A DNA stretch of 64,000 nucleotides from Desulfurivibrio alkaliphilus AHT 2 (GTDB lineage Bacteria > Desulfobacterota > Desulfobulbia > Desulfobulbales > Desulfurivibrionaceae): positions 1,493,742-1,557,741 of the forward strand of contig NC_014216.1 of NCBI RefSeq assembly GCF_000092205.1, given 5' to 3'. This document shows, one piece after another, positions 3,380 to 51,667 of the stretch (its first letter is position 1; each line of letters begins with the position of its first letter). The notes beneath the pieces were generated by a model. That model was not told where the DNA came from. It worked only from the letters and a program-made list of their open reading frames with translations, and did no database searches. Position numbers and translations under genes: made by a program.

Positions 3380-3414
3380 CATAATCCTGTTTCCAGTTAA
3401 GATTACAAGCAACC

Positions 3415-3560
3415 GTTCACCAGGGGTACTAACCTACAGGTATAACGGGCCGTAAGCGAACAGCCGTGCCGCAGGTTCGGGTAAGCAGCCAGGCGCAGCG
3501 TACCCCCTGTACGTAAGCCTGGCTGATCGCCCGAAGACGCGGTGCGGCTGTTCGCTTACG
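3415..3560 (+). repeat. full-length palindromic repeat element, copy 1
   Basis: The left 36 bases (3415-3450, beginning GTTCACCAGGGGTACT) are the non-palindromic module. Bases 3451-3560 form a long imperfect hairpin whose outer 22 bases pair at 20 positions. The mismatches are the conserved TG/TG pair. The apical hairpin is CGTACCCCCTGTACG. The right end lies one base from the uvrD stop codon, so the element separates uvrD from folC. An 8-base match (TTGTAATC) flanks it on both sides and may be an eroded target duplication. Short frames predicted across the element are its translation, not genes. Confidence 0.9.
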
Positions 3561-13952: not shown

Positions 13953-14020
13953 AACCTTAGAATGAAGTGCTTTACGACCGGTTACCCTTGCCCGGTCTGT
14001 CAAACGCCGTTACCGTAAGT

Positions 14021-14165
14021 GTTCACCAGGGGTACTAACCTGCCGGTTTAACGGGCCGTAAACGATCAGCCGTGCCGCAGGTTCGGGCAAGCAGCCAGGC
14101 GCAGCGTACCCCCTGTACGTAAGCCTGGCTGCTTACCCGAAGATGTGGTGCGGCTGATCGTTTAC
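14021..14165 (+). repeat. full-length palindromic repeat element, copy 2
   Basis: The 36-base module occupies 14021-14056 and differs from copy 1 at only three positions. The hairpin spans 14057-14165, with outer arms GTAAACGATCAGCC and its complement, apical CGTACCCCCTGTACG and the same TG/TG mismatch. The hairpin's outer TAA is the stop codon of nrdR (14162-14164), so the element encodes the end of that gene. It separates nrdR from ribD. Confidence 0.92.
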
Positions 14166-16490: not shown

Positions 16491-16637
16491 ACCCACCAGG
16501 GGCACTATCTTACCGGTTTAACGGGCGGTAAGCGGTCACAGGGTGCCGCAGGTTGCGGCAAGCGAGACGGCGAAGCGTACCTCAGTACGTGAGCCGGCTC
16601 GATCGCCGCAACCTGCGGTGCCCTGTGATCGCTTACC
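16491..16637 (+). repeat. full-length palindromic repeat element, copy 3 (divergent)
   Basis: The module at 16491-16526 has drifted (ACCCACCAGGGGCACT). The hairpin at 16527-16637 is 111 bases with arms starting GGTAAGCGGTCACAGGG. Its sequence differs from copies 1 and 2 over much of the stem, yet pairing is preserved. The TG/TG mismatch and the CGTAC...GTACG tip are retained. It ends one base before the rpiB stop codon and separates rpiB from glyA. Confidence 0.9.
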
Positions 16638-26278: not shown

Positions 26279-26772
26279 GCCAGTCGCTCTCCGGCCCCCT
26301 GCAATCGCCGGCGGACCACCTGGATGATCCGGAGCAACAGCTTTTGCGCCAGTTCCGGTTCATCGCTTAGCAACTGCTGCAAGCGCTCCCTGGGCAAAAC
26401 CAGCAGGCGGCTGTCATCAACCGCCGCCACCACCGTTCCGGCCGCTGGTTGCCGGGAGGCCTCCACCACCGCGCCTTCTCCTATCATGCCGCCCGGTTCA
26501 AACTCGGCCAGCAAAATGTAACGCCCGGGAAAAGAGGAGAGTTTTTTCACCGCCAGCCTGCCGGCCAGCACAAAGGCCAAAAATGGGGCCGGGCGCTGAT
26601 CATCCAGGATCACTTCACCCGCCTTCCATTCCCGGACTTCGCCCAGAGCCTTCAGGCGCAGCGCCTCAGCCGGCTCCAGGAAGGCCAGCACCTTCGTCGC
26701 CTCCTCGGCTCCTGGCGGGCGGCCCACCGGCAGGCCGGCGCCGGCCTTCTCTGCAGAACCGGTAGAGGTCAT
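26266..26772 (-). CDS. cyclic nucleotide-binding domain protein (Crp-like, no DNA-binding domain)
   Basis: A 168-residue protein with one cNMP-binding jelly roll: LAFVLAGRLAVKKL, then GGMIGEGAVVEASRQPAAGTVVAAVDDSRLLVLPRERLQQLL, then an alpha-helical end. No helix-turn-helix follows, so it is not a Crp-type transcription factor by itself. Ligand-binding residues of the phosphate cassette are only partly conserved. It overlaps the mlaC stop by four bases and the next membrane gene by 13, placing it at the end of the mla operon. Confidence 0.8.
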   Translation of the reverse strand: MTSTGSAEKAGAGLPVGRPPGAEEATKVLAFLEPAEALRLKALGEVREWKAGEVILDDQRPAPFLAFVLAGRLAVKKLSSFPGRYILLAEFEPGGMIGEGAVVEASRQPAAGTVVAAVDDSRLLVLPRERLQQLLSDEPELAQKLLLRIIQVVRRRLQGAGERLAWIL

Positions 26773-27431
26773 GATTGGCCATCCAACTCCCGACCACTGG
26801 CGATACTTTCTTCCATTCGCCGGATCAGTTCCTCAAAGGGGTAAGGGTCAAACTGGCTGCGGAAATTGCGCACCAGGCTCACCCCTTCGATATCCACATC
26901 GTAAACCACCCAGCGGCCGTCTTTCTCGCGCATCCGGTAATGTACCGGCACCGCCTGGTCCCTCATGATAAAATCGGTGGCCACCCGGGCAAATCGGTTG
27001 CCCCGGCGATCCTCGCGAATTTCCTGCTCGCCCACCACCACCTTCTCGCCGGAGTATCGATCCACCTGATCGACATAATTGTTTTCCAGATACTGCTTGA
27101 ACAGGCCGATGAAAAGCTGCCGCTGCTCGGTGCTCAACTCGCGCCAGCGCGGCCCCAGGGCGCGCATGGAGATCTCTTCAAAGTCGAAAAATCTCTCCAC
27201 CAGGGCCACCACTTTATCGTAGCGGGACTGGCGATTTTCCGTCCCGGCCAGTTCCGGATCGGTCAACACATCGATAATTTCATCCACCGCCTGTGTCACC
27301 GTGTCCCGGGGTTCCGCCGCCGCCACCCCCCAAGGGGCAAGCGCCATGATCAGCATCAGGGCAGCCGGCAGCAACCACCGCCCGCCGGCAAGCGCCATTC
27401 CGGCCGGCAAAAAAGTTTTGTCGCTCTGCAC
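26769..27431 (-). CDS. mlaC: phospholipid-binding periplasmic protein MlaC
   Basis: The Ttg2/MlaC family carries phospholipid across the periplasm between the MlaA lipoprotein complex and the inner-membrane MlaFED pump. The protein has a signal peptide (WLLPAALMLIMALAPWGVAAA), then DTVTQAVDEIIDVL, FDFEEISMRALGPRWRELSTEQR and VDRYSGEKVVVGEQEIREDRRGN. I chose the GTG at 27431 because AGGAGG lies nine bases upstream; the frame running to 27554 crosses a repeat element. It is separated from mlaA by that repeat. Confidence 0.92.
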   Translation of the reverse strand: MQSDKTFLPAGMALAGGRWLLPAALMLIMALAPWGVAAAEPRDTVTQAVDEIIDVLTDPELAGTENRQSRYDKVVALVERFFDFEEISMRALGPRWRELSTEQRQLFIGLFKQYLENNYVDQVDRYSGEKVVVGEQEIREDRRGNRFARVATDFIMRDQAVPVHYRMREKDGRWVVYDVDIEGVSLVRNFRSQFDPYPFEELIRRMEESIASGRELDGQS

Positions 27432-27460
27432 CTTATCATTCCTCCTGGCTTGTGTTATCT

Positions 27461-27607
27461 GGTAATCGTTCAGCAGCACCGCATCTTCGGGCGATCGGCC
27501 AGGCTTACGTACAGGGGTTCGCGGCGCCTGGCTGCAAGACCAAACCTGCGGCACTGCTGAACGATTGCAGCCCGTTAAACCGGCAGGTTAGTACCCCTGG
27601 TGAACGG
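27461..27607 (-). repeat. full-length palindromic repeat element, copy 4, with target-site duplication
   Basis: The hairpin occupies 27462-27568 and the 36-base module, in reverse, 27570-27605. The element is flanked on both sides by the identical 11-mer TTGTGTTATCT (27450-27460 and 27608-27618), which looks like a target-site duplication from insertion. Unlike the other copies, its module end faces the upstream gene. The module encodes the last residues VHQGY and the stop codon of mlaA. Confidence 0.92.
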
Positions 27608-28586
27608 TTGTGTTATCTCCTCCGGCGGCCTCACGGAACAGCCTGGGCGCCTCCGGCCCCGTCCCCCGATCCATGATCTGCCGGCGACGGTACTGCCAGT
27701 ATGCATCCCGCACCGCAATATAAGGATCAAAAGCTGCGCCGGTCAGCCGCTCATACTCGCCAACATGAAAGGAGGCATTGTTGACGGTCCGGCCGGCGTG
27801 TACCACCGCCCCGGTCCTGGGGTCTTCCATCAGCAGACGAGAGGTTGGGTTGACCAGGGAATCGCCGGCCATCCCCACGGAGTCGCGCAGGGTTGACGGA
27901 CCAAGCAACGGCCAGGTGATAAAAAAACCGGCGCCCAACCCGTAAACACCCAGAGTTTGGCCAAAATCAGCATTCCTCTGCTCAATACCGAAAGTGTCGG
28001 CGGCAGGGTCCACCAGGCCGGCTATCCCGATGGTGGTATTGACAGTAAACCGCAACAGCTCCCGGCCGCTGTCCCGCACCCGCCCCTGCAACAAATGGTT
28101 CACCACCCGCACCGGGGCGGTCAGGTTGCGGAAAAAACGCCGGAAGCAAAGCCTGATATCCTCCGGCAAGGTGGCGGCATACCCCCTGGCCAGCGGATCC
28201 AGCACCCGGACATAAAGGCGGTCGTTAAATTTAAAAACCAGCCGGTTGATGGGCTCCAGAGGATCGGCCAGCCGCTCACCGGGCCGGCCGGCGTCCCAGG
28301 GGTCATCATCCCAAGGATCGTCATCCCAGGGGTCATCATCCCAGAAGTCATCATCCCGGAGATCGCCGGGCTCCCCTTCTCCGGCCACCGCCTCCGGGGC
28401 GGCCGGCGGCCCGGCGGGATCAACGCCATGCTCGACAGAGCCGGCGGCGGCCGCCACCGGCAGCAGCAACAGGCAGGCCAGCAATAGTAGCGTCAGTACC
28501 GACCAGGCCGGACCACATCCCGCCGGCTTGCGCCTTTCTATCCCGTCCAGAAAGAACCTCCTCCTCCCAACCCGGCCGACCAGCAC
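27588..28586 (-). CDS. mlaA: MlaA/VacJ family lipid-asymmetry protein
   Basis: Outer-membrane component that removes mislocalised phospholipids. The core is classic VacJ: DPLEPINRLVFKFNDRLYVRVLDPLARGY, FFRNLTAPVRVVNHLLQGR and QTLGVYGLGAGFFITWPLLGPSTLRD. A hydrophobic signal segment (VLTLLLLACLLLLPVAAAA) comes first. No clear lipobox cysteine follows it, so membrane anchoring is uncertain. Residues about 79-95 are a tandem DDDPW repeat. The frame starts at a GTG at 28586; a stronger AGGAGGAGG site instead sits just before a CTG at 28550, a possible unusual start. The C-terminal VHQGY-stop comes from an inserted repeat. Confidence 0.9.
   Translation of the reverse strand: MLVGRVGRRRFFLDGIERRKPAGCGPAWSVLTLLLLACLLLLPVAAAAGSVEHGVDPAGPPAAPEAVAGEGEPGDLRDDDFWDDDPWDDDPWDDDPWDAGRPGERLADPLEPINRLVFKFNDRLYVRVLDPLARGYAATLPEDIRLCFRRFFRNLTAPVRVVNHLLQGRVRDSGRELLRFTVNTTIGIAGLVDPAADTFGIEQRNADFGQTLGVYGLGAGFFITWPLLGPSTLRDSVGMAGDSLVNPTSRLLMEDPRTGAVVHAGRTVNNASFHVGEYERLTGAAFDPYIAVRDAYWQYRRRQIMDRGTGPEAPRLFREAAGGDNTTVHQGY
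28293..28357 (-). repeat. 15-bp tandem repeat in mlaA encoding DDDPW
   Basis: About four imperfect copies of a 15-base unit (CATCCCAGGGGTCAT on the plus strand) encode DDDFWDDDPWDDDPWDDDPW. The copies differ at third positions, so the repeat is not brand new. It lies in the mature N-terminus before the VacJ core. Confidence 0.9.
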
Positions 28587-39887: not shown

Positions 39888-39994
39888 GTAATCGTTCAGC
39901 AGCACCGCAGATTCGGGCGATCAGCCAGGCTTGAGTACCGGTGTACGCGGCGCCTGGCTGCTTGCCCGAATCTGCGGCACTGCTGAACGATTAC
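39888..39994 (-). repeat. palindromic repeat, hairpin-only copy 5
   Basis: A 107-base hairpin with 43-base arms, of which about 39 pair (GTAATCGTTCAGCAG... and its complement), around a 21-base centre with GTACCGGTGTAC. The 36-base module is absent. It follows the lysS stop codon and separates lysS from the lol genes. Confidence 0.93.
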
Positions 39995-41261: not shown

Positions 41262-41368
41262 GTAATCGTCCAGCAGCACCGCATCTTCGGGCGATCAGCC
41301 AGGCTTACGTACAGGGGTACGCTGCGCCTGGCTGCAAGACCAAACCTGCGGCACTGCTGAACGATTAC
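41262..41368 (-). repeat. palindromic repeat, hairpin-only copy 6
   Basis: A 107-base hairpin nearly identical to copy 4 (27462-27568), including the same diverged right arm (TGCAAGACCAAACC). The shared defect suggests these two copies have a recent common source or spread by conversion. It starts one base after the lolC/E stop codon and separates that gene from lolD. Confidence 0.93.
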
Positions 41369-51535: not shown

Positions 51536-51557
51536 CCCCCCATCCAACGCAACGCAG

Positions 51558-51667
51558 GCTAATCGTGCAGCAGTGCCGCAGCTTGGGGCAAGCGGACCGG
51601 CGCCGCGTACCCCAGGTACGCAAGCCGGGCCGCTTGCCCCAAGCTGCAGTGCTACTGTACGATTAGC
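51558..51667 (+). repeat. palindromic repeat, hairpin-only copy 7
   Basis: A 110-base hairpin with arms beginning GCTAATCGTGCAGCAGTG and tip GTACCCCAGGTAC. Most of its stem sequence differs from the other copies but is base-paired, and the TG/TG mismatch is kept. Its right edge contains the stop codon of the FMN reductase (51663-51665). It lies between the convergent recO and FMN reductase genes. Confidence 0.92.

Follow-up and report, generated by a model that had tools for sequence, protein, structure and literature searches.

A probable IS66-type MITE, present in high copy number in Desulfurivibrio alkaliphilus, lies between mlaA and mlaC

The junction between mlaA and mlaC in the soda-lake bacterium Desulfurivibrio alkaliphilus AHT 2 is occupied by a non-coding element of around 150 bases, the related copies of which number well over a hundred in a genome consisting of a single contig of 3,097,763 bases. 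The element is very probably a copy of a non-autonomous transposon (MITE) that has IS66-type ends and is present in high copy number: the ends take the form GTAANCGTTCA..., and insertion duplicates 8 bp of the target. The assignment to IS66 is made because GTAANCG ends and 8 bp duplications are also found in IS66-family insertion sequences, the ends of which are described, in the excerpts consulted, as beginning GTAAGCG and being accompanied by 8 bp repeats (PMC11946415), or as GTAAGCGTCC.. and GTAACCGTCC.. (PMC12888890). Coordinates around mlaA and mlaC refer to the window, the whole 64,000 nucleotide stretch of DNA that was analysed (positions 1,493,742 to 1,557,741 of NC_014216.1). An IS66-family transposase acting in trans would recognise the left end (27462) and right end (27611) of the element, then either excise or copy it, and the element would be joined across an 8 bp staggered target.

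A high-copy family with target duplications

When the element was searched against its own genome, 40 of 284 first-look candidates were scored, all of which had at least 87% identity over most of the query (the query itself included); partial reverse matches were also returned, because the element contains a palindrome. A 21-base left-end pattern, allowed at most one mismatch, matched this genome 330 times and a right-end pattern 89 times, with no matches to the control (the reversed pattern, for the left end) in either case. Among the 38 genomes searched, the left-end pattern was present in 23, including all 15 of genus g4, again with no control matches, and the right-end pattern in eight. 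One genome of another family (G029; loci L250 and L257) has 59 right-end matches and none to the left-end pattern; judging by sequence, the tail is paired with a different partner there.

Family structure was defined from 101 copies collected from 228 kb around known matches, chosen by best or pattern matches and not at random. Seven, which did not start at position 1 of the model, were dropped before duplications were scored, leaving 65 full-length and 29 short copies; two of the latter had no recognised right end and were also removed, such that 27 palindrome-only copies were scored. In their common register, full-length copies extend for about 150 bp from a left end of GTAA to a right end of TTAC, with GTAANCGTTCAGCAG as the left and GTAACCGTTCACCAG as the right family end; the consensus terminal inverted repeats are GTAATCGTTCAGCAG on the left and, on the other strand, GTAACCGTTCACCAG on the right. 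An 8 bp duplication matching at seven or more positions flanks 41 of the 65 full-length copies, as against a mean of 0.08 in 50 mispaired shuffles, with the other 24 falling below this threshold. The family is therefore typical of MITEs, being short and without a transposase gene, having terminal inverted repeats and a target duplication of fixed length, and existing as many dispersed copies. In relatives, 28 loci with a total of 53 end starts yielded three copies with an 8 bp duplication at 7/8 or better (control, 0.1), two of them tailed (L059 and L065) and one palindrome-only (L078).

The insertions are depleted in long open frames: by a crude test in a GC-rich genome, 18 of 60 joined insertion sites lay in a frame of at least 200 codons, compared with 77.5% of 80 background points. 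Elsewhere in the window, further family copies or variants are found on the minus strand at 3412-3559, 14020-14165, 16492-16636 and 51553-51665, and palindrome-only copies on the plus strand at 39888-39994 and 41262-41368. The palindrome-only copy at 41262 is common to this genome and the sister species.

The portions of the open-licence PMC literature that were consulted describe neither a MITE in Desulfurivibrio nor a comparable IS66 MITE, and the main texts of PMC5016858 and PMC12142623 contain no match to 'transpos'. As it is described in part of PMC10969869, the Chunjie MITE of Geobacter uraniireducens is likewise non-coding, inserted in an operon and represented by full and partial copies, with a length of 235 bp as opposed to the 150 bp observed here.

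The copy between mlaA and mlaC

In the family register, this copy occupies 27462-27611 on the plus strand (150 bp), running from GTAATCG to GGTTGT, in place of the consensus end GGTTAC. It is composed of an internal 107 bp palindrome (27462-27568), the left arm of which is also the left end of the element and the right arm of which includes a third, internal end-like sequence, and a 43 bp tail (27569-27611) bearing the terminal inverted repeat of the right end, the consensus of which is GTAACCGTTCACCAG when read on the minus strand. The left target site duplication is GTTATCTG (27454-27461, plus strand) and the right is GTTATCTC (27612-27619, plus strand), the two agreeing at seven of eight bases. 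The open reading frames that cross the copy are mechanical, and 150 bp is too short to hold a transposase gene, so the element must be moved in trans, as had been deduced when only the letters were considered.

That sequence-only reading had drawn the borders differently. It rested on the 11-mer TTGTGTTATCT, which is found, exactly as reported, at 27450-27460 and again at 27608-27618 (both on the plus strand) with 147 bases between, and directly adjoins both ends of an element delimited as GGTAATCG... from 27461 and ...GTGAACGG to 27607. That a repeated element should have a perfect 11 bp match at each of its ends lies far outside what chance would produce; however, neither these ends nor an 11 bp duplication can be retained, because the 65 full-length copies define a family with GTAA...TTAC ends and an 8 bp duplication. 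The copy departs from the family rule twice, in its TTGT right end and in one duplication base. The perfect 11-mer results from the 8 bp duplication, minus its mismatched base, combined with this TTGT, which stands at the place of the TTAC found in most full-length copies and is also present in the left flank. Chance, mutation of the end or an odd repair event may each be the source of the matching TTGT. A transposon of another family, generating 11-12 bp duplications and having the ends as originally drawn, would accommodate the perfect 11-mer, and also the copy at 2278002, which has a similar extension (ATTC) and likewise lacks TTAC at its right end. Such a transposon is nevertheless very unlikely, since these are the only two of the 41 duplicated copies with a 4/4 extension, just one more reaches 3/4, and both the family register and the empty sites described below indicate 8 bp.

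The two flanking genes are on the minus strand: mlaA (27588-28586; Pfam MlaA) and mlaC (26769-27431; Pfam MlaC), the latter encoding a product detected in 25 of the 27 genomes from the family. The mlaA frame now runs into the element, which contains its final codons and stop (27588-27590), and the protein ends ...DNTTVHQGY*. When the flanks are joined over a single duplication, mlaA would instead end ...GDNTSQEE*, compared with ...RDNISQED* in the same-genus genome G002 (the latter by our reading of the codons), and AAGCCAGGAGGA is common to the joined flanks and the G002 junction. The insertion thus appears to have swapped the last mlaA codons while leaving the ribosome site of mlaC intact, this being, by our reading, an AGGAGG ahead of a probable GTG start at 27429-27431.

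Empty sites and age of the insertions

The closest relative used was G002, 800 kb of which were compared; an average nucleotide identity of 86.84% between Desulfurivibrio AMeS2 and AHT2 is given in the part of PMC12142623 consulted. Both flanks were collinear in these 800 kb for 32 of the 101 copies, of which 26 had no family match there and six were flagged. Four of the flagged copies face a strong match in G002 (1535003, 1916655, 1934393 and 1934602, the last two being opposite a single G002 copy), and the matches opposite the other two, 1935997 and 1942881, are only weak and partial, at about 18 bits. Three of six sites inspected were readable as empty, the 8-mer being present once in G002 and twice around the element in D. 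alkaliphilus AHT 2: exactly so at 1772239 (GGTCCGTG), with one base of the single G002 8-mer changed at 1880781, and with two bases changed and an adjoining 3-base length difference at 1423502. Among the others, 1714608 was readable on its left side only, and 1533629 (a palindrome-only copy) and 1945248 were not clean.

At the mlaA-mlaC junction, the element is missing from G002, where the site has a single, diverged counterpart, matching at seven of 11 bases by our count. The comparison depends on a short stretch, because of this divergence and because G002 mlaA has extra codons just upstream of the counterpart; the junctions of the other genomes are too diverged to align. The alignment nonetheless indicates that the mlaA-mlaC copy is an insertion, absent from the orthologous junction of a same-genus genome. 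The insertion proposed in the earlier reading is in this way borne out, and the empty site that it anticipated is seen in G002, albeit with a counterpart too altered to display the 11-mer intact. The opposite pattern, in which a relative lacks the element and yet has the 11-mer twice, was not encountered in G002, the one alignable relative.

Pairwise identity among the 65 full-length copies has a median of 86.8%, reaching at least 97% in seven of 2080 pairs, with a maximum of 98.7%. The mlaA-mlaC copy has 92.1% identity to the consensus, ranking 34th of 65, and its nearest copy is also 92.1% identical. The insertion postdates the split from G002 (or the copy was lost in G002), but it is not part of a recent wave of copies. 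The description of the insertion as probably recent is favoured by its absence from the sister species and disfavoured by both identity values; it is weak, being true only in relation to the split between the two species.

IS66 transposases as candidate mobilisers

Paired GTAA ends were found in 15 distinct IS66-type loci from relatives and other bacteria, just four of which have an 8/8 duplication: L102 (ACTGCAAT), L103 (ATAGAGCA), L090 (ATTTTATT) and L236 (GTTGAAGG). In the remaining 11, the duplication matched at 0-5 of eight bases or none was noted. Two left arms of the MITE, at 414535 and 1269192, read GTAAGCGCTCAGCAGCACCGC and have 14 bases in common with one end of the IS66 element from the same genus, GTAAGCGCTCAGCAAACCCC; by eye, no sequence is shared between MITE and IS66 ends beyond the terminal 11-14 bases. 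Thus, while the start of the ends and the duplication length are those of IS66 insertion sequences (PMC11946415 and PMC12888890, in the parts consulted), the MITE differs in having no tnpA, tnpB or tnpC, in being 150 bp rather than about 2.4 kb long, and in this limited extent of end similarity. A wider survey identified 22 IS66 loci by protein search; none of the 18 loci examined for paired GTAA ends, 13 of these and five found earlier, has MITE-like sequence past the first end bases.

In D. alkaliphilus AHT 2 itself, PF03050 detected one IS66 locus and no intact IS66 transposase. The locus (L021:1311-2842) retains both ends, has no flanking duplication and is internally deleted, being short of 479 and 407 bp relative to an intact counterpart in G002, the three genes of which encode products of 137, 117 and 523 aa; the L227 protein is 100% identical to the G002 IS66 protein. 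A full-length IS with long matching ends, which the earlier reading had suggested seeking, was thus not found in the genome, where the deleted locus shares only the first 11-14 end bases. PF03050 was detected in just four of the 23 genomes bearing the left-end pattern, and in none of the 15 genomes of genus g4, all of which have the pattern; one g4 assembly consists of three contigs, and many other assemblies are fragmented, a state in which multicopy elements can be lost. As no IS66 transposase was seen in 19 of these 23 genomes, the active partner may have been lost, missed in fragmented assemblies or drawn from another family.

One of the IS66-type elements, L090:1240-3653, carries a DruA-domain gene, and has ends GTAACTGTTCAGGTCA in addition to its 8 bp duplication, ATTTTATT. 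A DruA-bearing relative of this kind was considered as the mobiliser and rejected: DruA (PF14236) is present in three of 38 genomes (G004, G027 and G028), the end pattern is found in G027 alone of these, and no convincing paired ends are present at the G027 DruA locus (L261).

The palindrome and palindrome-only copies

The 107 base palindrome was recovered from 92 of 94 copies. Its position 5, the variable base of GTAAN, is paired with its partner at position 104 in 91 of 91 cells, through four pair types (TA 44, GC 25, AT 16 and CG 6) and never through a G-T pair, the right arms having been chosen by a motif that leaves this partner free and the counts being inflated by the kinship of the copies. 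Two nearby pairs have 11 and 17 mismatches, and the corresponding base at the tail end does not covary with position 5. Such covariation, together with the strong fold of the element (z of -4.62 and -4.99), would suit a reading in which the element is no transposon but a structured RNA or a terminator, its hairpin maintained by selection. This is extremely improbable, as the absence of copies at orthologous G002 sites and the 8 bp duplications require mobility, and an Rfam scan of 27000-28200 returned no match at E values up to 1; the hairpin may play such a role in addition to being a transposon.

Palindrome-only copies, as a rule, end precisely at TTAC. Unlike full-length copies, none of the 27 has an exact duplication of at least 6 bp, and one (1849161) has an 8 bp duplication at 7/8. 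An origin through deletion of the tail is not supported, because the duplication ought to persist after such a loss. An unbiased search downstream of the short copies found an 8-mer match of at least 7/8 in seven of 29, where about two were expected, and therefore a few short copies have other tails. Other genera contain minimal palindromes, about 46 bp long and with GTAA...TTAC ends (L060 and L073, near 1501).

The lack of duplications around palindrome-only copies, the high copy number and the palindromic form are also features of a palindrome of the REP/REPIN type, mobilised by a Y1 (RAYT) transposase, for which the flanking repeat would be incidental. Y1 genes are present in 34 of 38 genomes, two being in D. 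alkaliphilus AHT 2, and GTAA palindromes or fragments are occasionally located near them: a 63 bp GTAA...TTAC palindrome (L224:1323-1385, in G027), by eye resembling a family variant, lies about 1.3 kb from a Y1 gene, a 35 bp GTAA...TTAC hairpin (L209:3899-3933, in the D. alkaliphilus AHT 2 genome) about 0.8 kb from another, and a one-arm fragment (L212) about 2.6 kb from a third. The family also resembles REP/REPIN sequences in consisting of numerous short, palindromic copies located away from long open frames, by the same crude measure. However, the family profile found no full copy in 18 Y1 neighbourhoods, detecting only the L212 fragment, and full-length copies have 8 bp duplications and terminal inverted repeats, unlike REP/REPIN. 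Y1 enzymes are not known to generate 8 bp duplications. The end tag is also different, being GTAA here and GTAG or CGTC in the REP/REPIN sequences treated in the part of PMC3733652 consulted. This account of the element is very improbable, the 8 bp duplications speaking against it for the full-length form; for the palindrome by itself, a link to Y1 genes may exist but is not established.

With the full-length element taken as an IS66-type MITE, a more elaborate and rather doubtful proposal is that two elements are combined in it. A palindrome with GTAA...TTAC ends, found widely across Desulfurivibrionaceae and in certain neighbours, with strictly complementary arms and, as a rule, no target duplication, would move or be maintained by a mechanism specific to itself; the addition of a 43 bp tail would convert it into an IS66-mobilised transposon, of which the palindrome arm is the left end.

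Conclusions

If the palindrome is mobile alone, a second mechanism is still to be found. The analysis expands a single repeat into a family of mobile elements mapped in Desulfurivibrio, for which the length of the duplication has been measured and a candidate enzyme can be named; one copy of this family also places a mobile hairpin within an operon that serves outer-membrane lipid transport.
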